From positions 16,325 through 40,415 of the forward strand of contig NW_003119428.1 of assembly GCF_000003605.2 (NCBI RefSeq): DNA of 24,091 nt, read 5' to 3'. This document shows positions 2,123 through 24,091 of this stretch, one piece after another. Origin of the DNA: Saccoglossus kowalevskii. Its lineage: Eukaryota > Hemichordata > Enteropneusta > Harrimaniidae. How positions within the stretch are numbered: the first letter of the stretch is position 1; each line of letters opens with the position of its first letter. The position numbers were made by a program, and so were the translations under genes. A model generated the notes under the pieces. The model made no database searches. It saw nothing but the letters and a program-made list of their open reading frames with translations, and had not been told where the DNA came from.

Positions 2123-2690
2123 AAAAATACCCTTTGTAACTGTAATAACCTGCCTTTTAATAGTATTGTACTTGTAAGCATTTTTAGAATTGTTATTTTT
2201 AACCCAATTTTTACCATTCAACTATTGTAATTTAAGTATACTACCATTTGTGAATTTTATCGTTTAATGTCGTCCACGTCGTCATTTTTTCATTGTTTAC
2301 TTGTTCGTGACCGTCGTTTGTAATCGTTTAATCGTTTCATTTTGAACCAAGAAATGTGTCAAACGGATGACTGTTATCCCGATGGCACGGGCAGGGGGGT
2401 TCGATTCCCCCATTGTCCGTGCCACTTGGTGTTGGCCTGCCCGCGGGGTTTCTTGGTTCTGTTTACTACTGTCCAGTCGTTATTGATTTTTATTTACCCG
2501 CTGATCAAACAGGATCTATCTTTAGTATTTATCTATCTTTATCGACATGTCATCACAGATCTCAATACGCGCGCGTGTTACAGGAAACAGAATACATTAG
2601 ATGACGTATTTATAATATGGACAATACATGCTAATTGTGACGTAATTGTAATCACGCTGGGTACTCACTCACTTGTCTGAGCTTATTTAT
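2123..2690 (+). mobile_element. Probable 3' untranslated region of the LINE
   Basis: This follows directly on the end of LINE ORF2. It contains a strong hairpin (2384-2423) and GC-rich islands in otherwise AT-rich sequence. No poly-A tail or clear terminal repeat is visible, so the right boundary is a guess. The open frames here have no recognisable protein content. Confidence 0.5.
2384..2423 (+). other. Stem-loop in the LINE 3' region
   Basis: GGCACGGGCA (2384-2393) pairs with TGTCCGTGCC (2414-2423), giving ten pairs including one G-U. After a two-base bulge (AT, 2412-2413), GGGGG (2394-2398) pairs with CCCCC (2407-2411). The loop is GTTCGATT, which resembles a tRNA T-loop. Many LINEs use a 3' RNA hairpin as the reverse-transcriptase recognition site; that role is inferred here from position only. 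It is not a tRNA: no D-arm, anticodon arm or 7-bp acceptor of proper spacing can be drawn. Confidence 0.75.
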
Positions 2691-3684
2691 ATCACTTTTC
2701 GGACGAAAACATTATGACCACCATTGAAGTAACGTTAAAACCTACCCAATTGTAGACTGTTCAACACACAACAGGGTAAATTACAAGTATGTGAGTACAA
2801 TGAATATGCAGTATACAACAAAAATGTGATACGAAAACATTGAGCACGTGTCATTCTGGGTCATAATCAAATTGCCTTTTTAAGACACTTGCATCATACA
2901 AGTAATATTGATGTTATCCGAGTTTCATATTTAAAAACACGTTAATTATATCTGCAAAAACAACTTTTCAATGTTAAGGTTAATCATTCTCTGGTAAACC
3001 CTTGGTTTAATTGATGAAAAAATACAATATCCCTTTAAACAATCTGCATATGTACTACAGGGATAAGCACAGCGAATGTGTTACAAATGCATATCGCATT
3101 GTAAGTGGGATACTAACTTTATTGCTTTCCCCATGTTTTTTTTTCTGAATAGAATGACATTAGGTTAATATAGCATAGACTCTTTTCGACAACCGGAATC
3201 AGTATGGCTTAGCTGGACCCGGTTGCATTGACGAAAGGCAATATTGTTAACAAGATCCTCTTGGAGAAAATATTCTGGATCGCCATCATATAATTCATAA
3301 AGAAAGGCAACCATACTATCGTAATTCACTGACAACCCACATATCCATCATACCGTCTATGTTCTGCCCAACACATCTTAGGAACAATCTGCTGCCAACC
3401 CCCCATACCCACCACCACCCCACCCACCGAAATTAATCACAACACTACATCAACTGGCCTATGATTCACTTTCCTACAATATGTAAAGATCGTTTTTGAA
3501 ATGAGGCCGCACTGCGCCCGCTATGTTGGGAGGGAGAATGAATTTGATTGTACCAAACACCTTCAATTTTGTATTTTTTAATATTTGATGTAGGGTAACT
3601 CATATGGTACTGTCTGCCTTATGTCTTGTTTTAGGTTTTCAATTAAAAAATATTTTCTCTACTCGAAGACTAATGGCGTCCGCT

Positions 3685-3840
3685 CCGCCCTCTATCGGAA
3701 TCATTAAAAACGATGTTTTTTATCATGTACTGTTAATGCTAATAATGTGGTGAGTAGTATTATTTAAACCAATCAGAGGGCGGTATGATTTGCGGCAGTG
3801 TGGCGTAAGACCCAAGTTGCCCTCCACTCATTAATACTAC
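3685..3840. repeat. Two interlocked short inverted repeats
   Basis: CCGCCCTCT (3685-3693) has an exact inverted partner AGAGGGCGG (3775-3783). GTAGTATTA (3754-3762) has an exact inverted partner TAATACTAC (3832-3840). The arms alternate (A, B, A', B'), so they cannot both form simple nested hairpins. A CCAAT box (CCAATCAG) overlaps the A' arm. This could be the remains of a MITE or a promoter-like patch; I cannot tell which. Confidence 0.45.
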
Positions 3841-4118
3841 AAGCAGACGAAGAGATTGTTGAATAGTTCCCGCGATGAGGCGAAATATGGAAGGTGGAAC
3901 GTGTTCAAATGAAATATTATCACGTCTTGCATTATAGCGGCATTAGTAGTAACTAAAAGTAAATTATTGATGGGTATATTTCCGGCCGCAATGTTTAAAC
4001 AAGAGTGAGAAGTTACGTCATTTTGACTCGACCGTTGACCTCATTGAACAGAATGTTCACGTGGCCTGCAAAATCTAGTTATAAAATGCATATATGAATA
4101 CAGCAGACATAACCTGTT

Positions 4119-4207
4119 GGGGGGGGGGACGATTTCGCGGTTAGTGGGGTAATTCGCGAAAATAGTAATGTATTTCACTTGAGACAAGTAAAATACCCCC
4201 CCCCCCC
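4119..4207. repeat. G10/C12-closed foldback containing two hairpins
   Basis: A run of ten G (4119-4128) and a run of twelve C (4196-4207) enclose two further inverted repeats: TTTCGCG (4133-4139) with CGCGAAA (4155-4161), and TATTTCACTTG (4171-4181) with CAAGTAAAATA (4185-4195), one mismatch and a three-base loop. Together they can fold into a three-way junction. It may be a very short terminal-inverted-repeat element; no clear target duplication is visible. Confidence 0.6.
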
Positions 4208-4919
4208 TCGGACTGTAGCCACACTACTCCATGCCCTGGCCAATGTTAAGTAATAGGCACTGCCGAATACTTTGGCAATTGCGGTCATCATTATTTCCGC
4301 AATAATACTCACCATACCTCATTCATAGTGTGACTTGTATCCAGAGGTTCGTCGAGCACGGCCATCCAACGTACTAGTACTTTGTGACATCGCTACCGGT
4401 ACTTGCTAGCTGACAAGTGGGGACAATACATAGAACTTGCCTAATGGGGACGTGCCCCTGAAATGGGTCTCGTTTTTTAGATTTTTGGTATGAGTAACGG
4501 TCTCATTTCTGGTCAAGATGGGTATATAACTAAATCAATGAAGATAATTGGCATTTTTACCTTGCCTGTAGTGTAAACGGAAGGTAAGGTATTATTATGT
4601 TTTCAAATAACAATGCAGTTGAAAGTGTGATTTCATCACAAATGGTATAACAATATTTAATTTCAACAATACTATTTATAGCTAAGATATTTTCTTTCTT
4701 AGTTTTTAAATGAAATAATGTTAGACTAAATTATTAATTATCTTACTATATATTAATATTAATGATTACTTTCCTGATTGGTACATTATATCATAAGACG
4801 TTCCACAATTATATACTGGTCTAGTGGGCTAGGTACAGCTTATAATTGACAGATATTTGTCAAATATAAATATATATGGCACTCTTCAAAATCTAATTAT
4901 TTTTATTTCAGGCATAAAA

Positions 4920-6743
4920 ATGGCAGAACCTTACTCAAATCCATTAAAATTTGTACCGGAAAAGAAGCAGCTGCTGTCCACAAATTGGGAGAAATGTGTG
5001 ATATGTCAGCAGAGCAGCAAAGAAAAACTTGTGACACCAACAAAAGTGGATATTGACAAATTATTATCAACATTATTGGTAAGGCAGGACGATGTTTTTC
5101 AGAGACTTAAATCTGAGTTTGATGACCTTACAAAATTACAAAGTATGTCTGTTAAATACCACCTTAGTTGTTCAATCAATCATTTACAAGCAAGAAAAAC
5201 ATTTCCCATGTTACTTGTAAACATGGCACTCAAGATTCTGCAACACATAGTACAGACGATCAAAGTGTTTGCACCCGGGCTCAAACATTCAAGCGTACAA
5301 ATTGGTCAATGTGTGTAATAGGCAGTGCATGGAAGAGAGACAGCCTACATAAGGTGCAGACAACATGTCAAAACAATCTCTATCAAGCAGCACAAGCTCG
5401 TAAAGACTTCACTATGCTTGCTAAAATTGAAGGAGAAGACCTCATTGCAACTGATGCTATTTATCACAGATCCTGCATGGTAAGTTATACAAGCAAGCAT
5501 AATATCAGCGCTTCACAGAAAATGGATGTAGGAGAGAACATATTTTAGAAGGCATTTATGGCGCTGGTAAAAGAAATAGATGTTAATCTGCAACACGGAA
5601 GAGCCTATAAGTTGAAAACACTGCTATATAAATTCCATGATCTTTCACCTGACCACATTGACACCAAGGGATACAGTGCACACAAACTGAAGCGCCGTCT
5701 TATGAATCATTATGGTGATGAAATTGTTTTTTATGCCCAGCGGGGACAGTCCAAGTCAAGTATTGTTGTCAGTAGTAGTGCCAGCTTAGGAGATGCTGTC
5801 AGAGCCTTTGCTCAACTGAAGGAGGAGTTCAACTATAATGAGATGACACTTGGTTCTGCTGAAGAACAATCAAATGTTCTAGTGAATTCTGAAAGTTTGC
5901 TTCATTCCGTCATTGGTGTGCTTAGGCAAGAAATAGCAGAGAGAAAAAAACCAACTGAATACTTCACTGCTGCTGAAATCGGCTTGGAAACATCCCAAAC
6001 ATTAGTACCAGAGCTTTTACAGAAGGCTTTTCTTTGGTTGCTCAGCAAAGATGCATTTGAATCTGGTGATTCAAATTACCAGTCATCAGAGAAAGTACAA
6101 AGAAGAGTCTTAGCTCTTGCAGAAAGTGTTATTCATAGCAGTAATAGCAGTATAATAACCCCTCTTCATTTAGGGCTTGCAGCGCAATTGCATCATGATC
6201 ACGGAAAACGAGATATAATAGACACTCTCAATGCCCATGGTTTCAGCATAAGCTACGATAGCCTTCGATGCTTTTTTAACAGCCCTTGGAAAAGATGAAC
6301 TTAAAAGAATGCAACATCGCATATATATACCACATGGCTTAGTCTCACGGTAACATGGAGGAAAGCTTATTCAAGAAGGTGATGACAATATTGACATCAA
6401 CTGTGCAACAATTGATGGAAAGGGAACATTTCATTCCATGGCTTGTGTTGTATTTCAAGAACAAGCAATTGATAAAGATGTCATTTGCCCGGAAGACAGG
6501 GTGAAGATTGGCCAAGAGAAGTCACTGTCTCTTGACTGTGATGATGCGAAGGCACTGAAGAATGTAATGCGCTATGACAAACCCAGGAAACGACCAGAGC
6601 CTCCTAGGCGTGATGATGCAAAGGGCAAGGTAAAATCACTTCACATTGCTGAATCAGACATACAGGCAGCAGATCTTTCTTGGATATTTCTCAGAACAGT
6701 TCCACGTGGTAGCCTTTCTGTTCCCTCAAGTAGTTACCGATGA
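4920..6743 (+). pseudogene. Broken copy of a Cys-rich, probably transposon-associated animal protein family
   Basis: I recognise the layout from large uncharacterised protein families in cnidarians, echinoderms, lancelets and fish; I know no agreed function or name. The start is ATG 4920, just after a good splice acceptor (TTTTATTTCAG, ending 4911). A first zinc-binding-like module reads WEKCVICQ ... KYHLSC. A second reads WSMCVIG ... IYHRSC, so its second Cys is Gly (codon 5321-5323). A conserved helical block follows (KEIDVNLQHGRAYKL, HKLKRRLMNHYGDEIVF), then a motif DDNIDINCATIDGKGTFHS that looks like an acidic catalytic patch (inference). Breaks are a frameshift between about 5200 and 5280, an in-frame TAG at 5546-5548, a one-base T insertion at 6272-6277 and an in-frame TAA at 6351-6353. 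Similarity fades at SWIFLRTVPRGS near 6710, so the C-terminal part is missing. Not expected to make a working protein. Confidence 0.7.
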
Positions 6744-6926
6744 CAACAACTGTTACAGAGGTGGTGTTTATCAGCACGGTGACCGTTACAGCGAAACAAT
6801 TTTATTAGTGTTAAAATGCCTTTGAGGAAAATTAAATTAAAGGAAAATAAATAAATAAAAAATCAAACTATTTAACAGTCTATCACTGGAAGCTGTCAGG
6901 CTGGAAGTTGCTGACATGTTGCGAGA
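6744..6926. other. Short non-coding spacer after the Cys-rich pseudogene
   Basis: AT-rich sequence with no recognisable product. A short + strand reading near 6885-6970 (LEAVRLEVADMLRDTAKT) looks protein-like and runs into the left arm of the inverted repeat. It is too short to assign. Confidence 0.3.
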
Positions 6927-7631
6927 TACAGCCAAAACAAGGTCAGCTTGGACGTTCAGTTGCGAGATGTAACAAAAAAAAGGCAGCCAGTGATACATTT
7001 CGAAAATAAAAATACAAAACAAACGCAATCAGAGGCGCCGACCACGCGCGTTGGAAACACACGCACTCACGCACCAGCCACTCACGCAATATATTATGCT
7101 ATTTCCCAACGCACTTATATTTAATACATTGACGAATAACACCACAAGTTAAATGTAAATCAGGCTTGTAATTACTAGTAACTCAACTCGAACGCAATAT
7201 TCATCACTGTAAAAGTGGATAAATTCGAACCAGCCAGCTCATGACCAGAAACGTCCTGTCGTCTTCGTTGATAACTCGCCAATTCACCGTAATCGTGGTG
7301 GTGAACTGTTTAGCTGATTTTTCAAAAGATGGATATTCAATTCATATTCATCCGGACCCCAAGAAACACCCCACCCCCTAGATCCGCTACTGAGTTGTAT
7401 TAATACAAAGATGATTTAAACTTGTCCCTTCCGTTGCCAACGTATTCAATATACAGAAATAACATGTGTGTGCGTTTGCGTGAGTGCAAGATGCAGGTAA
7501 GATTTCTTGTCGCAACGCGTTCTATTTAGTTCCAACGCGCGTGATCGGCGCCTTTGATAGCCTTTCACTGGCACCGTTTATTTTGTCATGTCTCACAACT
7601 GAATGTCCAAGCTGACTTTGTTTTGGCTGTA
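6927..7631. mobile_element. Large diverged inverted repeat, possible foldback or non-autonomous DNA transposon
   Basis: The left arm (6927-7056) read in reverse complement matches the right arm (7530-7631). TTCCAACGCGCGTGGTCGGC and its extension match in 22 of 23 positions, and CTGAACGTCCAAGCTGACC with its extension matches in 31 of 33. The left arm carries an extra stretch of roughly 25-30 bases between those blocks. About 470 bases separate the arms, and CACGCACTCACGC-like words also recur inverted inside the arms. No target duplication was found, so the exact ends are unknown. Two unrelated copies of one repeat inserted head-to-head is an alternative. Confidence 0.65.
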
Positions 7632-8137
7632 CAGGTGAACAAGTTTACTTATCATTTACAACTGTATGTTTTTTTATTCCGCTTGCATACTGGAAGCGTC
7701 TACGTCTTGTCAGCTTTTTTTGTTGTTTGCGAAGATAGTTGATCTCTTTTGAGGTAAATCAGGGAGCCAGGACAGGAAGTCACGAACTGAGGCCAGCAAC
7801 TCGTTTGCATATAGCATCAAGAGCAACATAAACAAACTTTCGGGACTTTTAATCACATACGCGTGCCTCGGTTTCCTATATTTTAAAGTCTTTTTATCAG
7901 TACGTTCCAACATTGACAAAGCTCTAAAATTTTAACACTACCTAGCCAAGACTGCCTGTTGCCCCGACCAACGAGTACGAAATGAGACTTTACCGAGTTT
8001 AACTATGTAATTTCCAACTTGAAGGTGATTGGAGCGTATTGAAGCAGTCGCCGGCTGTAATTAGTGCACGTTGTACCCAGGTCAAGACTCGTACTAGTGA
8101 TTTTCATTAGAAGAATGCATTGGATTGTGGGGAAATA
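7632..8137. other. Non-coding spacer
   Basis: I see no gene, repeat or regulatory site that I can support here. Confidence 0.5.
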
Positions 8138-8506
8138 CATGTTTGAGTAGGGGGGGGCAAGGGTTATTTTCGTTCAACGTAATTGCAATATATTTTTGTT
8201 CGTACAACGTAAATTGAAAAAAATAAATTCCGTAATTCTGTAATCACAGGCTAGACGAAATCAATCAAATATTTTGTTCGTACACTGTAAAAATGTGTCA
8301 TCTTTCTCGGTACGTACAAGAATTTTCTAGGTTTTCTTTCTTAATTTTCCGTAAAATGTAAAATAACCTTTATTTTCTCTGTAAACTGTAAACATTCAAT
8401 TTTCACTGTAAACTGTAAAAACGTATTTTTTTTCATTGTAAATTGTAAACAAAACCTTTTTATTTCCTGTAAAGCTGTACCAGCTACCCCCTTGCCCCTC
8501 ATGTTT
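8138..8506. mobile_element. Candidate MITE with G-rich terminal inverted repeats and internal tandem repeat
   Basis: The left end GGGGGGGGCAAGGG (8150-8163) is matched in inverse by CCCCCTTGCCCC (8487-8498). The direct repeat CATGTTT lies just outside both ends (8138-8144 and 8500-8506) and may be a target-site duplication, although the left copy is five bases from the G run. The interior is dominated by diverged tandem copies built on TGTAAACTGTAAA. There is no coding capacity, as expected for a non-autonomous element. Assignment to a superfamily is not possible from this. Confidence 0.55.
8336..8475 (+). repeat. Diverged tandem repeat, period about 28-30 bp
   Basis: About five units share the pattern T-rich run, then CTGTAAACTGTAAA or close variants (CGTAAAATGTAAA, CTGTAAACTGTAAA twice, TTGTAAATTGTAAA, CTGTAAAGCTGTA). 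Looser versions of the same words (GTACAACGTAAATTG, GTACACTGTAAA) occur from 8170 to 8300, suggesting an older, longer array. Confidence 0.7.
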
Positions 8507-11479
8507 ACCACACAATTGTCGCACATGAGCAGCGCGCGATAACCACCGTCCTTCATGCATCTGAAAGTACCAACTTAGAACACATTTCCAGTTGCCAAAA
8601 AATTGCCATACACATCCGTGTACAACAAAACATTCTTTTCAATTCAGATAAATTAAAAAAACAGCTGACTGTAAAATAAATATATATTTTATTCATTATT
8701 CAAATATTTTATTATTTTGTATTCCATACTCAATGTCCATCATATTGGCCCAGCATAACTAGACCCTCAATCAAATGAATTCAAATGTCACTGTATTTCC
8801 ATGGTTTGCACACGTTAATTTACTTTACCTGCTGTCTATTTGACATTTTCCGCTTATTTGACAAATAGTATTGTATGAGGGGGAAAATCTCCTCCTCTAG
8901 GGTTCTCCACACGTGTCAGGTGGGAATATCGTCTCGTCTCTATATCGCGTCCCCTTGAGGTACGGGATCGGGAAAGTCACTTAAGCCTTACAGTCAAATA
9001 GACACACACAACGAAATACGTTTCAACTCTCGTCTTAGTCGGTCAGTCGAGCACTCTATAAGACACAGCGCCCTGGGGAAAAGTCCCCAAGACTATCGCA
9101 AGGCTGACCCAAGACTCTCTTTAGATTGCGTCAAGACTCGCCCCAAGACTCTCCGGGACTGGACTGCCTCTGTCCTGATGTACTCGCCAAGACCAACTAA
9201 AAACTCTTTATTCGCTTTCAAAACATTTACCAATTACAAAGCAGTAAAAAGACTCTAGGGCGTAACCTTCAATCATAAAGCCAATCACACTAAGCACTGG
9301 ACACGTCATATTTTTTGATTAATCGTTCATTACATTAATAACTACGAATACTAACTGTCAGAAATAGTAGTCCGAATAGCGACGGTTATATGTCGTAATT
9401 AGTTCCAAATCACTGAGTCGAGTTCCGTCCAGAACCTCAAATGGCCTAAACGATGCCAGACATAACACAGCCAATCACTCGTAATCAACTAATTAAGTCG
9501 ACCAACAGATACGCAAAAACAATTTCATCATACTTGCATGTTTACAGTGGGCCTTATATTAGTTGTCGAGACTGAAACATGGTGAACCAATTACGTGTAT
9601 TTCAGGTCCGTGTGGCGAGCCATTTCTTGTGATTCCATGATATTAATTAGTTGGACTGTTACTAGTTTTCACAATAGTTTAAAAGACTTTCTATCAATGT
9701 ACATGCAGCTACGCAATATATTAGACGTATGTTTACAAGCAACATACGACCTTATTTATTGCAAATTACTAAAACTTAACAAGATTGCTTTGAAAGTACG
9801 CATTTCACTTTAATCCGTTTCTCATAAACATTTTATTAGAAGTAAAAGTAACACACTTTTCTATACACAATTTGAAAAATTCGGTACCAACCCTGTCTGC
9901 CATGTGGTCGCTTAGTTTATAAACCTACCATTTAAGCTTTGTATTTTATGTATGGGATATAAAATTAGGACAATGTGTCTCAATATCGTTTAATGCTTGA
10001 CTCCTGACAATTATATTGCTGCAAATATTATATTTCCCCATGTTAAATCACCCAGTTAGGTCATAGTTATTGTATTTATCATGTGTAGGGGCCAGCTGAC
10101 CAACAGAATCCAGTAAAATACAATTTCTTTTTTTAATGTACCATCTTCAATTCAGTCGTAGATATGACCAATCTCTTATCTGACTACTACAAAGTTTGTC
10201 GCCATCGTCTCCTGTTTCTTTAGGTTTTGGATATGAGTAATATGGCTATTACAAACCAGTGAAAGCATAATTCATGGGGTTCCAAACCTAATGGCTGTAG
10301 TGCTACAATACACAAGCTATACGGATAAGCTGTACTGCCCTGTGACACACATAGTGAAATTCAAATAACATGTAAGTTCAGAAAATGTGAGATACAGAAT
10401 ATATCTTAGGGTCATGCCATAGACAGCTTCTTCAGGACTGAATGATAATCGATGCATATTGCATTTTTTAGTTTTAGCAGAATAAAAAAAAAGATGTATT
10501 ATTTGATAAAAATACTTGTAAACGGTATGGGGTTTCATTTACATAATCGTGATTGTACAGACGTTTTCAGGATTTTAATGCAATAACTAACATTTTTATT
10601 CATATCAATAACAACTTAGTGAATGGCCTAGGATCTTACTAACTGCAGGGCAGATATGCTGACTATTTGTTACTCACAGTCTTCACCTCCCATAAATAAT
10701 ATCGAATACACAACGCCGTAAATACAAATTGATAATATTAAGCATGAGATGCGTGGACAACTCGAACCGACAAATACGCACGGTAGCAAATCGCGTTTCC
10801 CAACCGACCACAGGTTATCCCTCAAAAGTATGCAAATAATTAAGTATGAATACTACGAACAAATCCCGTGAAACCCCGACCACGTCAGTTGTAAGGTTGC
10901 GTTTCCACTTTTTCTATCATCCCTCCCATAACTAGCCAAGACATAGAACGTGTAAAAACGCTGTAACAGTTGATTTTGTCAAACAAGATAGGTATCTTTT
11001 TCTCACCAAACCACAAAATGCATTCCTTAGACGAACATACCAACAAAGTAACCGACCCTCGAAAATAATCAAACCCTTCTAACTAAGTGTCTCTTGTTTA
11101 CAAATTAAATTAAATTGAATTAAAATAGTATATTCTGCAGTTAATTTTTCATTTCATATCTTAAAATATTATGGTGTATGTATTGGTCATGGGGTGGTAC
11201 CGTATATATTTGCAAAGTGGGAATCCTAAGTTAGTTTTTTTACTTTAAATCCACACCACTGCAAACTGCCAAAACATGTTATTCTGTACTCTAGATGTAT
11301 GTCAACATCATTTGTAACAAAGCACTGAAATAAGATATACGACGTTATTAATTGCAAATTTCTATACTGTAAATAGTTGTTTTGAACATGAACAACACCA
11401 TATTTTTTAATTGGACAAGCCTTTCTCATTTAGCAGAATTGGAAACACCTGTTTCAGCTCACTGTTTTAAGTGCACTAG
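8507..11479. other. Long intergenic or intronic stretch without a recognisable gene
   Basis: Open frames are short and low in complexity, and I found no exon matching the Cys-rich gene to the right. At 9085-9195 the word CAAGACT(C/A) occurs five times at irregular spacing (near 9089, 9110, 9131, 9144 and 9189). The rest is AT-rich with no structure I can support. Confidence 0.5.
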
Positions 11480-11591
11480 TATACACTCCACAATTTTCTT
11501 TGTGATGAACATGCATCCGTGACGCCTGGCTATCTGTGTTGTGTAGACGACGGTTGTGCGGCACCATCGTGTTTAGGAGTATACACACCAG
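11480..11591 (+). CDS. Probable exon: C-terminal half of a VWC-like domain
   Basis: The frame reads CDEHASVTPGYLCC, then VDDGCAAPSCLGVYTPG, and ends in phase 1 at the donor CCAG|GTAATT. It lines up with the exon at 12972-13121 (LCC-x-D-x-x-C, then P, L, Y and a terminal Gly) and ends in the same phase. The CC-x(3-4)-C motif is the hallmark of the end of a von Willebrand type C domain. The 5' boundary is uncertain: a TAG at 11477-11479 closes the frame, and an acceptor there would give phase 0 instead of the phase 1 of its paralogue. The exon may therefore be degenerate, or its true start unrecognised. Confidence 0.5.
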
Positions 11592-11767
11592 GTAATTTTA
11601 GGGAAATATCTGCCTTTTCTGTTTCATATCCAATCCTGTTTCAGTCACAGAGGTATCGTTCAGAATAAATGTTTCACACTGCGGATTAGGTTGTGAATCC
11701 TGGAATAAATTGCTGCCAATTTGTTTAAATTTAAATACACTATAAACCCATTAATTGTTACTGAGAG

Positions 11768-11931
11768 TTAAAGCGGGAAGTCATCACCTGCGCATGCGCC
11801 AAATGGCCATAGCGTGTCATTGTTTACAAACAATCATCTACCCATGAGCCTTTGCGTTTATAGCCTGTGTTGTTATCGTCGCTTGGGACTCAATTCCCAC
11901 GCGTGTGCAGGTGACAACCCTCCCGCTTTAA
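11768..11931. mobile_element. 156-bp MITE, copy 1, with TTAA target duplication
   Basis: The element (11772-11927) starts AGCGGGA and ends CCCGCT, with an imperfect terminal inverted repeat of about 27 bp (AGCGGGAAGTCATCACCTGC against AGCGGGAGGGTTGTCACCTG). TTAA lies directly on both sides (11768-11771 and 11928-11931). A second copy of identical length lies at 22831-22986. TTAA duplication is typical of piggyBac and Kolobok elements; I cannot choose between them. It lies in the presumed intron between two VWC-like exons. Confidence 0.88.
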
Positions 11932-12445
11932 AGTTCGGATACGAAGATACTAAGTAGTAAACGTCCGTGACTTTGTAATACAGCGCATTTTGCGAGTTGT
12001 TTTTTCTGCAGCCCTGTTATTACAGTGTATGTGTTACACCTAACCCCTTTTACATAGAATTTGCATCTGAATTTGCATATCATTGTAAAGTACATGTGTT
12101 TCAAACAAAAAAAGCTTGTCAATCTGATTACCGTTGTTTCATAATTTAGGGTTTTGCTGCTCATAAATTGTCCCATTTTTAAATAGAAAAATGTCGTGAT
12201 ACCGTTTTAAATCACGTGAGAAAAACCTAGTTCAGAACGACAGTTCTCTCATAGTAAATTGTAAATTTTTCTTAATAATGAATTAAAAAAACGAGCAAAT
12301 GGTTAATGGATGTGCATTACACGAGTCTAGTGGTGTCACGTGATGCACATTGTAAATACATTTCAATAGAACCGCCATATTGATGACGTAATCGGAAGAA
12401 AGAATATCATTAATATGGTCTCACAAATGTTCTTAATTTCCACAG

Positions 12446-12515
12446 AAGGGTTTTGTGAGTTGGACTGTGAATATTACTCGCCGGGAGATGTAGTGAATGA
12501 AGACTGTGAAATCTG
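12446..12515 (+). CDS. Exon A of a VWC-like domain
   Basis: The acceptor is TTAATTTCCACAG and the donor TG|GTAATG. The exon is 70 nt long, entered in phase 1 and left in phase 2. It reads GFCELDCEYYSPGDVVNEDC followed by EI, with the junction codon completing Cys in the next exon. The spacing C-x3-C-x2-Y-x2-G-x6-C-x2-C is that of the first half of a von Willebrand factor type C domain, a secreted disulphide-rich module found in BMP-binding proteins, mucins and matrix proteins. Start and end are set by the splice sites and by continuity into 12627. Confidence 0.75.
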
Positions 12516-12626
12516 GTAATGAGTTGTTATTGTATTGTAACAGTAACATAGTTAATACCTTCTGCTTTGTTAATTAAAAGATTGTGAGATTGGTAACGTT
12601 TTTGTTTTGTTTTTAATTTCCGATAG

Positions 12627-12673
12627 CACGTGCAAGGATGGAAGTTGGAAATGTATACCAGATCCGGCATGTG
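12627..12673 (+). CDS. Exon B of the same VWC-like domain
   Basis: 47 nt, entered in phase 2 after AATTTCCGATAG and left in phase 1 at a strong donor (G|GTGAGT). The reading is C-TCKDGSWKCIPDPAC-G, the classic C-x-C-x2-G-x-W-x-C core of VWC domains. Together with exon A it gives an uninterrupted domain half. The 111-base intron between A and B is short, as is the 144-base intron that follows. Confidence 0.78.
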
Positions 12674-12772
12674 GTGAGTACCTCTTATTTTGACAAAATC
12701 GTTCATATATATATGTACCATGCTGATTCATTTATTCACATTTTCGTTCGTTCTTTCATTCATTAATTCATT

Positions 12773-13015
12773 AACTGGTTTGTATGCTGAAATATATGAA
12801 AACGATTTTATTTACAGACGGAGCCTGCCCATGTCCGTCCGACTTTGTAGGGGATATGTGCNNNNNNNNNNNNNNNNNNNNNNNNNNNNNNNNNNNNNNN
12901 NNNNNNNNNNNNNNNNNNNNNNNNNNAACTGGTTTGTATGCTGAAATATATGAAAACGATTTTATTTACAGACGGAGCCTGCCCATGTCCGTCCGACTTT
13001 GTAGGGGATATGTGC
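12773..13015. repeat. Perfect 89-bp repeat flanking the assembly gap
   Basis: 12773-12861 and 12927-13015 are identical in all 89 bases, including intron sequence, acceptor and the first 44 bases of an exon. The left copy stops at the first N and the right copy starts right after the last N. This is the pattern left when two overlapping contigs are scaffolded but not merged, so only one copy probably exists in the genome. Confidence 0.9.
12862..12926. other. Assembly gap, 65 Ns
   Basis: 65 undetermined bases between two identical 89-bp ends. The real gap size may be negative, meaning the contigs overlap. Confidence 0.99.
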
Positions 13016-13121
13016 GTGGAAACGTGTGACGTTTGTGTTAACGAAAGGAGCATCAGTCGGCTTTGCTGTACTGATCCTCGCTGTCCACCTCCTGAATATC
13101 TGTCTGGACAATATCTTGGAG
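12972..13121 (+). CDS. Exon C: C-terminal half of the VWC-like domain
   Basis: The acceptor is ATTTTATTTACAG (also present in the left gap copy, where the exon would begin at 12818 and be cut by Ns at 12861). The donor is GGAG|GTATTT. It is 150 nt, phase 1 to phase 1. The product starts DGACPCPSDFVGDMC, continues VETCDVCVNERS and ends SRLCCTDPRC-PPPEYLSGQYLG. The CC-x4-C motif matches the last three cysteines of VWC domains, so exons A, B and C encode one complete domain of about 90 residues. The symmetric 1-1 phase of the A-B-C set suits duplication of whole domains. I would use this copy and ignore the partial one before the gap. Confidence 0.75.
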
Positions 13122-13268
13122 GTATTTCATCATTTTTGAATTGTGAAGTTTTATTACACTTGGTGTATTTTTATCTTTATACATTTTGACAAAATGCTAC
13201 ATAAATTCTGTCGTATGGTCCGCCAAAACACCATCACATGAATACTCAACTTCTTTATTTGTTCTAAG

Positions 13269-13335
13269 GTTACTGTGAAACGAATTGTACTTTCTACAGA
13301 CAATTTGATGTTTATAAAGAAAACTGTGAAATATG
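13269..13335 (+). CDS. Exon A of the next VWC-like domain
   Basis: 67 nt between acceptor TTTGTTCTAAG and donor TG|GTAAGC, phase 1 to phase 2. It reads GYCETNCTFYRQFDVYKENC then EI, with a split codon expected to give Cys. This mirrors exon A at 12446 (C-x3-C-x2-Y ... DV ... E-x-C-E-I). I could not find the matching exon B further right, so the next intron is long, or the gene continues past the sulfotransferase on the other strand, or the copy is degenerate. The gene identity is unknown; kielin/chordin-like or mucin-like proteins have the same module. Confidence 0.68.
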
Positions 13336-15738: not shown

Positions 15739-16387
15739 TAAAGCTTGAGTGGGCTTGATTACGTGGCAGACACCATGTTTGTCATATTGTTAAAAGCTTG
15801 AGTAGGCTTGATTACGTGGCAGGCATGCTTATCATATTGTTAAAAGCTTGAGTAGGCTTGATTACGTGGCAGGCATGCTTATCATATTGTTAAAAGCTTG
15901 AGTAGGCTTGATTACGTGGCAGACATGTTTATCATATTGTTAAAAGCTTGAGTAGGCTTGATTACGTGGCAGACATGTTGTCATATTGTTAAAAGCTTGA
16001 GTAGGCTTGATTACGTGACAGACATGTTTATCATATTGTTAAAAGCTTGAGTAGGCTTGATTACGTAGCAGACATCATGTGTGCCATATTGTTAAAAGCT
16101 TGAGTAGGCTTGATTACGTGACAGACATGTTTATCATATTGTTAAAAGCTTGAGTAGGCTTGATTACGTAGCAGACATCATGTGTGCCATATTGTTAAAA
16201 GCTTGAGTAGGCTTGATTACGTGACAGACATGTTTATCATATTGTTAAAAGCTTGAGTAGGCTTGATTACGTAGCAGACATCATGTGTGCCATATTGTTA
16301 AAAGCTTGAGTAGGCTTGATTACGTGGCAGACATGCTTATCATATTGTTAAAAGCTTGAGTAGGCATGATTACGTGGCAGACACCCT
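15739..16387 (+). repeat. Minisatellite, 13 units of 49-53 bp with higher-order structure
   Basis: Each unit contains AAAGCTTGAGTAGGCTTGAT followed by TACGT(GG/GA/AG)CAGACA and ends in CATATTGTT. Two main types occur: a 50-bp unit with ATGTTTATC and a 53-bp unit with CATCATGTGTGCC. From 15991 to 16299 these alternate strictly, giving three copies of a 103-bp dimer. The first and last units are the most diverged, as expected at array edges. A partial unit may precede the first (15721-15738). Confidence 0.97.
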
Positions 16388-17018: not shown

Positions 17019-18119
17019 TCACCAGAGTGGCTGTGTCATATTTAACAACTCCACATTGTTCCAAACCATTGTATAACCGAACATGTCCATCGCGTCAAAA
17101 CAAACCGCTTGTACGTGCTGTACATCAACAAGATGAAGAGTACTTCTCCATGATTGCGCAACCGCTGTGGAATTTTTGGTTGTTGACATATTATTATCAA
17201 TGGTAGGATTACTTTGTCTTGTATTAAAGTTTATCCACTCAAGCACTTTTTTGTGCAACGGTATTCCGACAAACCTGTACAACTCCACGGCCATCTTGAT
17301 TGGGTTCGAGGCTATGTCCTCGTACCGTACTAATTTGTAGTTATTTGAGGTCCACAGATTAGATGCATCGACATAGTCGCTGTTGTTTGTCATCCACTCG
17401 CAATATTCGCGTATATTATCCGTTATTCCATTGTGTATTCGAGTAACGTGTGTTTTGTTGACCACGGGAAAAACATATCTGGAATTCACAACTCCACGAG
17501 GGTCACGAACGAGGTGGATAAGTTTAATGGACGTTCCATACGAGTCTAACAATGACTCGAGTTCTCGAAGAGAGGATGCCCGGATTATCTTTGCTGCTAT
17601 ACTTTGACGTTTAGCACATTCCTTTGAAAGAACGACAGGTGGAACCATGGAACACTGGTTGTACTTTCGACAAACGTTTTGGATAGCTTTACTATAGGCA
17701 ACTGCTATTTTCCACCGTCGTAGTTCTGTTGCATATTTCGGTGGAAAGCGACACTGTAACAACTTGTTTAATAATTGTACTCCATTGGTGCCATCTACCG
17801 ACGCGTGCAGTGGTTCGAAATAATAAAATATATTTGGGTTTTGGTTGAATAATTGACCTGTGAACGATGACCCTGTGCGAAATCGTGAAAATAATATAAC
17901 ATAAACATTTTTTCGACGTTTCATATTTTTGCTATTAAGTATTTTATCAAGTCTCGCTTCTTTCCCGTACAGCTGTTGCAAATGTGACGTACCCTTTAAT
18001 GGTCGCATAATCGTGAAAATTGCGTTGTATCCGTCGTGAAGCAGAATGAAATCCATAGCCGTGGTTACCAAGGAGACTACGCATACCAGTGTCAGCCATT
18101 TTCTCAACTCGGCATTCAT
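17019..18119 (-). CDS. Carbohydrate 6-O-sulfotransferase (CHST1/3/5/7-like), Golgi type II membrane protein
   Basis: The enzyme would move sulfate from PAPS to C6 of Gal, GlcNAc or GalNAc in glycans in the Golgi lumen. It is 366 residues and intact in one coding exon. A short cytoplasmic tail (MNAELRK) precedes a signal anchor at about residues 8-27. The 5'-phosphosulfate loop is SRFRTGSSF (78-86), the 3'-phosphate site is LVRDPRGVVNSR (203-214), and YEDIASNP (267-274) matches the conserved C-terminal block. Potential N-glycosylation sites are N221, N245, N310, N316 and N360. It is somewhat shorter than vertebrate relatives (about 386-530). The start is the first Met, placed seven bases after a splice acceptor (TTTGCTTGTAG, ending at 18127), so a 5' untranslated exon lies upstream. 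The acceptor specificity cannot be read from sequence. No partner gene is visible nearby. Confidence 0.93.
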   Translation of the reverse strand: MNAELRKWLTLVCVVSLVTTAMDFILLHDGYNAIFTIMRPLKGTSHLQQLYGKEARLDKILNSKNMKRRKNVYVILFSRFRTGSSFTGQLFNQNPNIFYYFEPLHASVDGTNGVQLLNKLLQCRFPPKYATELRRWKIAVAYSKAIQNVCRKYNQCSMVPPVVLSKECAKRQSIAAKIIRASSLRELESLLDSYGTSIKLIHLVRDPRGVVNSRYVFPVVNKTHVTRIHNGITDNIREYCEWMTNNSDYVDASNLWTSNNYKLVRYEDIASNPIKMAVELYRFVGIPLHKKVLEWINFNTRQSNPTIDNNMSTTKNSTAVAQSWRSTLHLVDVQHVQAVCFDAMDMFGYTMVWNNVELLNMTQPLW

Positions 18120-18126
18120 AGTTAAG

Positions 18127-18140
18127 CTACAAGCAAAACA
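18127..18140 (-). other. Splice acceptor in the sulfotransferase 5' untranslated region
   Basis: On the - strand a pyrimidine-rich tract ends TTTTGCTTGTAG, and the exon then begins CTTAACT followed by the start ATG. This suggests a non-coding first exon and a promoter further right, which I could not locate. Confidence 0.6.
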
Positions 18141-19319
18141 ACGTGGAATGTCTTATTCATATATGCAATGTTCAACAACTCAAGAATTGCAGCTTAAATA
18201 GACATTGACATTGTATTGAGTATAATCTCGCAAAATAAACATGGAATACGATGATAAATCCTTAATTGAACAAAACTATTGGACATTTATTCTTACCGTC
18301 TCACTCATTCAGTGAACCGACGTGACACTGTATTATCATAAGGTTGCAAACCATGAGCTCAATAAAAATGATGTTTATAATTACGATCACAATATATTAT
18401 CTGTTTATCTGCCTGGACAAACTAGTGCGCATGTTAATGAGATCGTGAACAGCGCGGTATGCAACTAACAGCCACTCTGAAGTCGTTAGGAACAGGTGCA
18501 GACTACTTAACGAGCATTCACACATTGGAAATTATTTTACAAAAGTAGTTGACTCCCGGTGTGCTTCGGGCGTGGTGACTGCGAAGGGGTGGGTATTCGT
18601 TCCCATATTATAACTCAGGGAAAGTACATACAAATTACCATAATACTGATTAAGAGCTGTTTCGACATAGGTCACGAATCTGGAGAGGGCCACATACTAG
18701 TATAGTGATAAACGTTCCCTATAGGATTAGTGTCTGTTCTTGATAATGTGACGTGACGCACTGATCTTTCATAGATACGTCTTTCCGTATCCATGTATTC
18801 CAAGCAGTGTTGGTGAATGTGCGTGTTTAGACTTTAACAACGCTCAGTTGGCAATCATTAGAATATGCATGTACACGGTTTGGATACCCGCATGATGACA
18901 CCGTAAAATACTATTCCCGCAGCCAATGAATTACTAATATTTTGTGGAATTTAACATCTTGGTTTTTGGCGTAATTTTGATGAATTTGCAGTAAGCAATC
19001 ACAAAATGAACGCCGAATATCAAAATACGATTTTCATTTTCGGACGTTTTATTTTATTGAAATGCTAGGATGGGAGTTTTTTTTTTGCACATTTCCAAAC
19101 GACGGCAAGCGCAGCAACAAATGGTATCAGATCATAAACAAGCACAAGCTACAATGATACCACTGCAGTAAGTTCTATTTCAAGACCCTCAAATATTGTC
19201 CTAACAAAAACGCCCACTTCTTAATATTTATACAGTTCAACGCATGCTCGATTCAGACATATGACGTCATATTCTAGAACCAAAGCGACGTTAACTAATT
19301 CATGATTATGCAAGTTAAA
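18141..19319. other. Upstream region of the sulfotransferase, no feature located
   Basis: It presumably contains the 5' untranslated exon and promoter of the - strand sulfotransferase. I see no clear core promoter, repeat or gene. Confidence 0.4.
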
Positions 19320-22826: not shown

Positions 22827-22990
22827 TTAAAGCAGGGGAGTCGTCATCTACACATGCGTCAGATGGCCATAGCGTGTCATTGTTTACAAACAAGCTTCTA
22901 CCCATGAACCTTTGCGTTTTAGCGTGTGTTGTTATCGTCGCTTGGAACTCAATTCCCGCGCGTGCGCAGGTGACGACCCTCCCGCTTTAA
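22827..22990. mobile_element. 156-bp MITE, copy 2, with TTAA target duplication
   Basis: Same family, same orientation and the same length (22831-22986) as copy 1. TTAA flanks both sides (22827-22830 and 22987-22990). The interior shares ATGGCCATAGCGTGTCATTG and the block around GTTGTTATCGTCGCTTGG. The left terminus here is AGCAGGGGAGTC, so its inverted repeat is slightly worn. Confidence 0.88.
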
Positions 22991-24091
22991 AACCTAGTTT
23001 CCATCTTACTGCAATTATGTCTGTCTGTCTCTAGTTGTTTTTGTAATTAATGTCGAGGAGTAAAAAGATGGTCGCCGTTGTACAGCGCGCCCGAGTATTG
23101 TGTAAATAAACAGCGTGTTTTACGTGCGTTGTGTGCGTCGCCGCAGTGAACCCCTACCGAACACCACGCGTCGTTACTTTTGAAATTGAACAATTTGTTA
23201 TAACTCTTATGACATTATTTCGACTAGCGTAAGCGACATTTTACTGTTTCAATGCCAAACTTGGGTATATGTTTATACGAGCAGCCGTATAACTATATTA
23301 CGCATTGCTATGGGAAATTAAATCTTATACAAAAATTCTTAGGAATGATTATCGGTTGGAAAGAAACTGACTGATCTCAAGGATAACTTCCATGATAGCA
23401 TACATCTTTAACACTAAATGATTTGCGAATGACTTACGTTGGCTCCAAAAAAAAAACGTTTCGAATAATTATATCCAGCCAAGACTTAAACCCCAACTGC
23501 CCTATATAATACGAACGTTTGGTAATTCCCTCAGATGTTTATAGATTAGCTTCTAGTGATGATGATTCGTGTTAGTCCAGGCACTGACGCAAGGTGTATT
23601 ATTCATAGTTGTATTCATAAACATGTGTACAATGCAACTAAGTTTCGTAAAACGTGTTCTATTAGAAAAAATCTGTTGTAGCACTGAACACACTTCCACT
23701 GTCAATGTTATTAAAACAATTCGCGGATGTTGTACCGTTAAACGGTGGTGTACCACGTTACAGCGCGTGTGAAATTCTAACGTGTGCTGTACGGTGACTC
23801 TGGCCTGAAGCGCGGTGGTCGTCGCACTGTGCATGTGCGACATTTGTGTTGATAAACACTGACTTCCCCATAATCCAATGCGCTCTTCAAATGGAAATCA
23901 CAAGTATGAGGTTTGACTTGGGCGTGACTCTTTCGATACCTTTCAATCACCTAAGATATACCTAATTAAAGCTTGGAATGTCTCAATTTGTACTCGTTGA
24001 TCTGCGCAACAGTCAAAGTCGCCATCTTGTTTATATGAGACCCATATATATCGCGCATGCGTGGCCCGACGCCTACCGGCTTTTAAAGGGC
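22991..24091. other. Right-edge region without a supportable gene
   Basis: The patch at 23060-23175 is richer in CpG, and GTCGCCATCTTG near 24018 reads as a YY1-type motif on the - strand (CAAGATGGCGAC). Either could belong to a promoter, but there is no adjacent gene to support it. Confidence 0.35.

Follow-up and report, generated by a model that had tools for sequence, protein, structure and literature searches.

Micro-exons of a putative modular, cysteine-rich protein gene in Saccoglossus kowalevskii and an apparently truncated copy of its module array

The exons studied here are likely parts of an animal gene whose product would be large, modular and probably secreted. Exons A and B would make up one unit of it and exon C a separate one, and the window would hold a copy of the gene about 10.9 kb shorter than its homologue. 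The window is the whole 24,091-nt stretch of Saccoglossus kowalevskii DNA that was analysed (C1213:16325-40415 of the 572 Mb genome). The A-B unit would be VWC-SD1/pacifastin-like and interrupted within a Cys codon by a phase-2 intron, and C would be a Cys-rich unit preceding an A-B unit. The homologous copy on contig C1210 adds lustrin-type modules and one domain each of Kunitz and pacifastin type; the window copy would be without about 10.9 kb of such modules, with one break inside a C exon. Judged by the lustrin-type, Kunitz and pacifastin modules of C1210, the product is most likely secreted or bound to a matrix, and would combine protease-inhibitor units (Kunitz, pacifastin) with adhesion-type ones (lustrin, VWC-like). 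We infer splicing, secretion and inhibition from the sequence and its domains.

Micro-exons in the window

Exons of 70, 47 and 150 nt with splice phases 1-2, 2-1 and 1-1 had been proposed from the letters alone, and their AG/GT borders and phases agreed (Table 1). Joined, exons A, B and C were 267 nt long and encoded 88 residues with 15 Cys, and no stop was present in the joined A-B-C-A2 frame. The A-type exon claimed at 13269 was also recovered. It was 52% identical to exon A (tblastn E about 4e-7 in 103 kb).

Table 1. Coordinates of features in the window and on contig C1210
Feature	Position	Strand	Details
Exon A	12446-12515	+	70 nt, phase 1-2; AG before, GT after
Exon B	12627-12673	+	47 nt, phase 2-1; AG before, GT after
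Exon C	12972-13121	+	150 nt, phase 1-1; AG before, GT after
Exon A2	13269-13335	+	67 nt, phase 1-2; AG before, GT after
C-type exon stump	11497-11591	+	last 95 nt of exon; 94% identical (tblastn) to C1210:328035-327880
Junction	11490-11497		left matches C1210:338836, right C1210:327977 (blastn blocks, side-by-side sequences)
65-N gap	12862-12926		identical 89-nt flanks, 12773-12861 = 12927-13015
Reverse-transcriptase gene tail	1-417, frames on to about 2050	+	PF00078, E 4.6e-15; probably a broken retroelement
Run of long open frames	4833-6743	+	161, 126, 249 and 129 aa; may be a putative decayed mobile-element gene
Tandem repeat, about 50/103 bp	15740-16383		6.3 copies of longer unit, 94% matches
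Sulfotransferase-like intronless open frame	17019-18152	-	377 aa; PF00685, E 1.4e-16
A6-B6	C1210, gap edge 346351 to 346281 + 344283-344228	-	split pacifastin-type domain
A4-B4	C1210:334675-334438	-	no Pfam match
N gap and possible B exon	C1210, between A4-B4 and first lustrin-type module	-	
Lustrin-type module 1	C1210, 5' of A5-B5	-	25.6 bits, below cut-off of 27
A5-B5	C1210	-	VWC 20.5 bits, below cut-off
Lustrin-type module 2	C1210, after A5-B5	-	32.5 bits, above cut-off
C exon	C1210:330539, after lustrin-type module 2	-	
A3-B3	C1210:330247-330025	-	VWC-type matches, all weak
Lustrin-type modules 3 and 4	C1210, after A3-B3	-	21.6 bits, below cut-off; 27.9 bits, above cut-off
Kunitz domain	C1210, between lustrin-type module 4 and C exon at 328035	-	E 8e-19
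C exon	C1210:328035-327880	-	intact, 156 nt
A exon	C1210:326908-326839	-	after C exon at 328035
Element of about 930 nt	C1210:326815 to about 325887		80-nt inverted ends

The micro-exons look real. A scan by phase and Cys pattern found A-B and A-B-C chains on the real plus strand. Neither the real minus strand nor any of 200 dinucleotide shuffles held such a chain; isolated exons of A-, B- and C-like form occurred in 28, 4 and 14 of the shuffles, respectively. The scan pattern was composed post hoc with the exons already seen, which makes the scan a check and no blind test. Sequence similarity is better support for the exons. Exon A differed from C1210:326908-326839 at 1 of 70 nt, and exon C was 49% identical to a C exon of C1210 (tblastn E 1e-13 in 103 kb).

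The A/B intron split a Cys codon (TG/C or TG/T) in all five pairs, one in the window and four on C1210; A5 and A6 of C1210 were found or delimited through this terminal codon and are not fully independent in the count. Exon A2 terminated in TG/gt, as did the A exons of these pairs. Neither the window nor the readable C1213:46694-61642 and 90717-100000 contained a B partner downstream of A2, a further B or another complete C; C1213:1-16324, 40416-46693 and 61643-90716 read as N. The sequence-only reading of a repeated three-exon set was therefore borne out for the second A exon and left without its second B and full second C. The search of the flanking scaffold that it proposed gave no further B or complete C exon on these readable stretches of C1213, and the longer homologous gene was found on C1210.

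A second exon-C start at 12818-12861 lay within the exact 89-nt repeat beside the 65-N gap. Unmerged contig ends have this appearance, and the partial exon is therefore most likely an assembly artefact in which one exon appears twice. A real duplication of the exon-C start is less likely.

Promoter and terminator patterns in the window occurred near chance, and neither a tRNA nor an Rfam family at gathering score was present. A dispersed repeat of about 165 bp with inverted ends (MITE-like) was observed at window 11768-11932 and 22827-22991, with a copy at the matching place on C1210 (327680-327515).

Homologous copy on contig C1210

The 572 Mb genome was searched with the DNA of window stretches 12400-13100 and 9500-12540. 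Apart from the dispersed repeat, they resembled one other place, the minus strand of C1210 (for 9500-12540, among the 40 of 1869 first-look candidates that were scored). Co-linear blocks extended from window 2507 to 12539 against C1210 343558 to 326815; counting substitutions only, their identity was 0.80-0.95, and indels were numerous. A few short, repeat-like blocks off this line were seen at window 6927-7631 and 22827-24015.

Joined A6-B6 of C1210 matched Pacifastin_I (PF05375) with 38.6 bits (cut-off 27.9) and the VWF-like PF23244 with 31.8 bits (cut-off 27); its PF00093 score of 25.6 bits was below the cut-off of 27.6. Two of the four lustrin-type modules were above their cut-off. The Kunitz exon and the four lustrin-type exons were phase 1-1, as read by eye from the printed C1210 borders. 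No 5' gene end was recovered, and C1210 reads N between 346352 and at least 360000.

When the C1210 C exon at 328035 was used as the genome query, the matches were this exon, the window stump and window exon C, three places in all. Local scans alone detected the C exon at C1210:330539 (tblastn E 0.003). The genome search with the pacifastin model gave 14 places at E<=10, one of them above the cut-off, and that with the lustrin model gave one place at E<=0.001. The locus of the gene, with the split A6-B6 domain, was not among these places; an exon-by-exon search evidently misses split modules.

Domain assignment and module borders

Joined A-B scored 25.3 bits against PF23244 (VWF-like module; E 1.2e-5, cut-off 27), 16.7 bits against PF00093 (VWC; E 0.009, cut-off 27.6) and 15.3 bits against PF05375 (pacifastin; cut-off 27.9), all below the cut-offs. 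Exon C had no Pfam match in any of its three versions (window and C1210). Solved-structure sequences gave six weak matches, of which a von Willebrand factor chain was the best (E 0.074). No match was found in NCBIfam, no relatives of the joined exons or the sulfotransferase in viral contigs, and no match to window 12400-12760 in plasmids. The window held no convincing lustrin-type or Kunitz module.

The motif of the VWC first half is CxxCxC and that of the second half is CCxxC. The former was present in window A-B and in C1210 A3-B3, A4-B4 and A5-B5 (the three C1210 pairs tested by regular expression). Where the VWC second half would have CCxxC, exon C carried CC-x4-C. The pacifastin consensus is a six-Cys spacing with C-N-x-C and C-T. 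The strict six-Cys pattern was found in none of the four pairs tested, and the relaxed Cys spacing in two of the four (window A-B and C1210 A3-B3).

Exons A, B and C had been read as one VWC domain in a tandem three-exon set. In the window, exon C does come after A-B and the set is phase-symmetric, and CxxCxC in A-B with CC...C in C resembles the two VWC halves. On C1210, none of the four A-B pairs was followed directly by a detected C exon (one was followed by an N gap), and the two C exons came after other modules, one after a lustrin-type module and one after the Kunitz domain; the C1210 exons were selected with patterns derived from those of the window, and missed exons could alter this order. 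Each known C exon had an A exon next: window exon C, both C exons of C1210 and the stump. The spliced translation gave no VWC hit, as joined A-B-C-A2 had no PF00093 match at E<=1; the VWF/VWC-like signal was confined to A-B and stayed below cut-off. The CC-x4-C of exon C and the 15 Cys of the A-B-C set also count against a single VWC domain. Altogether this reading is very unlikely. Since the C1210 module order separates C from A-B, the three exons probably do not form one VWC domain. Judged from the sequences, A-B and C appear to be distinct phase 1-1 units, with C coming first, and the claimed phase symmetry holds for each of them, since A+B and C both start and finish in phase 1. A tandem array of three-exon sets was also considered. 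The window contains one A-B-C, one A and the stump, and the array is contradicted by the different module order on C1210.

Apparent truncation of the window copy

The window copy seems truncated by a large deletion or an assembly fault. Its match to C1210 ended at window 11495 and resumed at 11497 inside a C-type exon, with 10,858 nt of C1210 (1,970 of them N) missing between these positions. The first 58 nt of the C1210 exon at 328035-327880 had no counterpart in the window, and the stump had 95 nt against 98 nt in the corresponding part of C1210. A C-type exon had been claimed at 11480. It proved to be a truncated stump, with exon homology restricted to 11497-11591, and the nearest AG before it (11478-11479) would give phase 0 instead of 1. 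The exon has a C-like end and no proper start because the jump falls inside a C-type exon. No exon was detected in the C1210 DNA that matches the window up to 11495 (10.9 kb upstream).

A real deletion in an allele or paralogue, leaving a shortened copy or a dead gene, has close to an even chance of being correct. The junction contained no N and no evident repeat, which supports a deletion and argues against an assembly artefact. The identity of 0.80-0.95 with many indels shows that the window and C1210 copies are separate sequences. Against a deletion, the common sequence stopped at window 12539 and did not reappear in the 36 kb retrieved, which means that one contig or both are rearranged or misjoined. 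C1210 was also the only place that resembled the two searched window stretches, within the candidates scored, and the window sulfotransferase gene was single at 100% in the genome (39 other places at E<=0.001, none at 100%).

An assembly artefact, in which two haplotypes or copies were stitched at 11490-11497 and 12540, is a serious possibility with a probability below one half. The exact 89-nt duplicate at the N gap indicates imperfect joining nearby. The common sequence ended 24 nt past the exon A donor, at the edge of the element of about 930 nt, so that C1210 departs from it exactly at a transposon edge. Near-identical (99%) pieces of this element were also observed on contig C3744. Around the window, C1213 consists of N over long distances, and N does not necessarily mean an assembly gap. 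Were the deletion real, skipping the stump would leave the other modules joined in frame, because the modules read are phase 1-1.

Comparison with known proteins and biological meaning

'Ancestral' pacifastin-like multidomain proteins have lustrin, VWC and Kunitz partners, and molluscs are a main reservoir of them; pacifastin-like proteins with these partners occur in lophotrochozoans and other non-arthropod groups, according to the available text of PMC13388995. The gene studied here resembles the proteins described there in combining pacifastin-like units with lustrin, VWC and Kunitz modules. It differs in that window A-B is under the pacifastin cut-off, and the C unit has no counterpart in the descriptions of pacifastin-like proteins in the same text.

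A-B is similar to the short VWC or VWF E-like modules (PF00093, PF23244) in its CxxCxC, its G-x-W-x-C-like spacing and its weak model matches. It differs from them in scoring under both cut-offs and in having no VWC second half. The C unit is unlike VWC in being a separate unit, as judged by its distribution on C1210.

Exon-shuffled extracellular modules are usually phase 1-1, according to the part of PMC7259759 consulted. The present units are consistent with this in starting and finishing in phase 1, and A-B differs in being split once more, at a fixed Cys codon, by a phase-2 intron. A literature search on VWC exon phase found nothing.

The gene is an ordinary modular gene of a kind already known. 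Two of its features are of wider interest, a C module that has no name and what may be an in-frame deletion allele. In the furthest-reaching reading, exon C would be a small Cys-rich module, so far undescribed, placed in every case ahead of a VWC/pacifastin-like A-B. The window copy would be a natural internal deletion of at least nine modules, translatable only through phase 1-1, and a modular inhibitor-type protein would thus show a standing polymorphism in length. The whole of this reading is unlikely.

The results confirm that raw sequence allows micro-exons of a modular gene to be picked out through their phase and Cys pattern; the module borders were corrected. The deletion allele, if real, would be a natural test of phase 1-1 modularity, in which a secreted inhibitor-type protein loses domains and keeps its frame.
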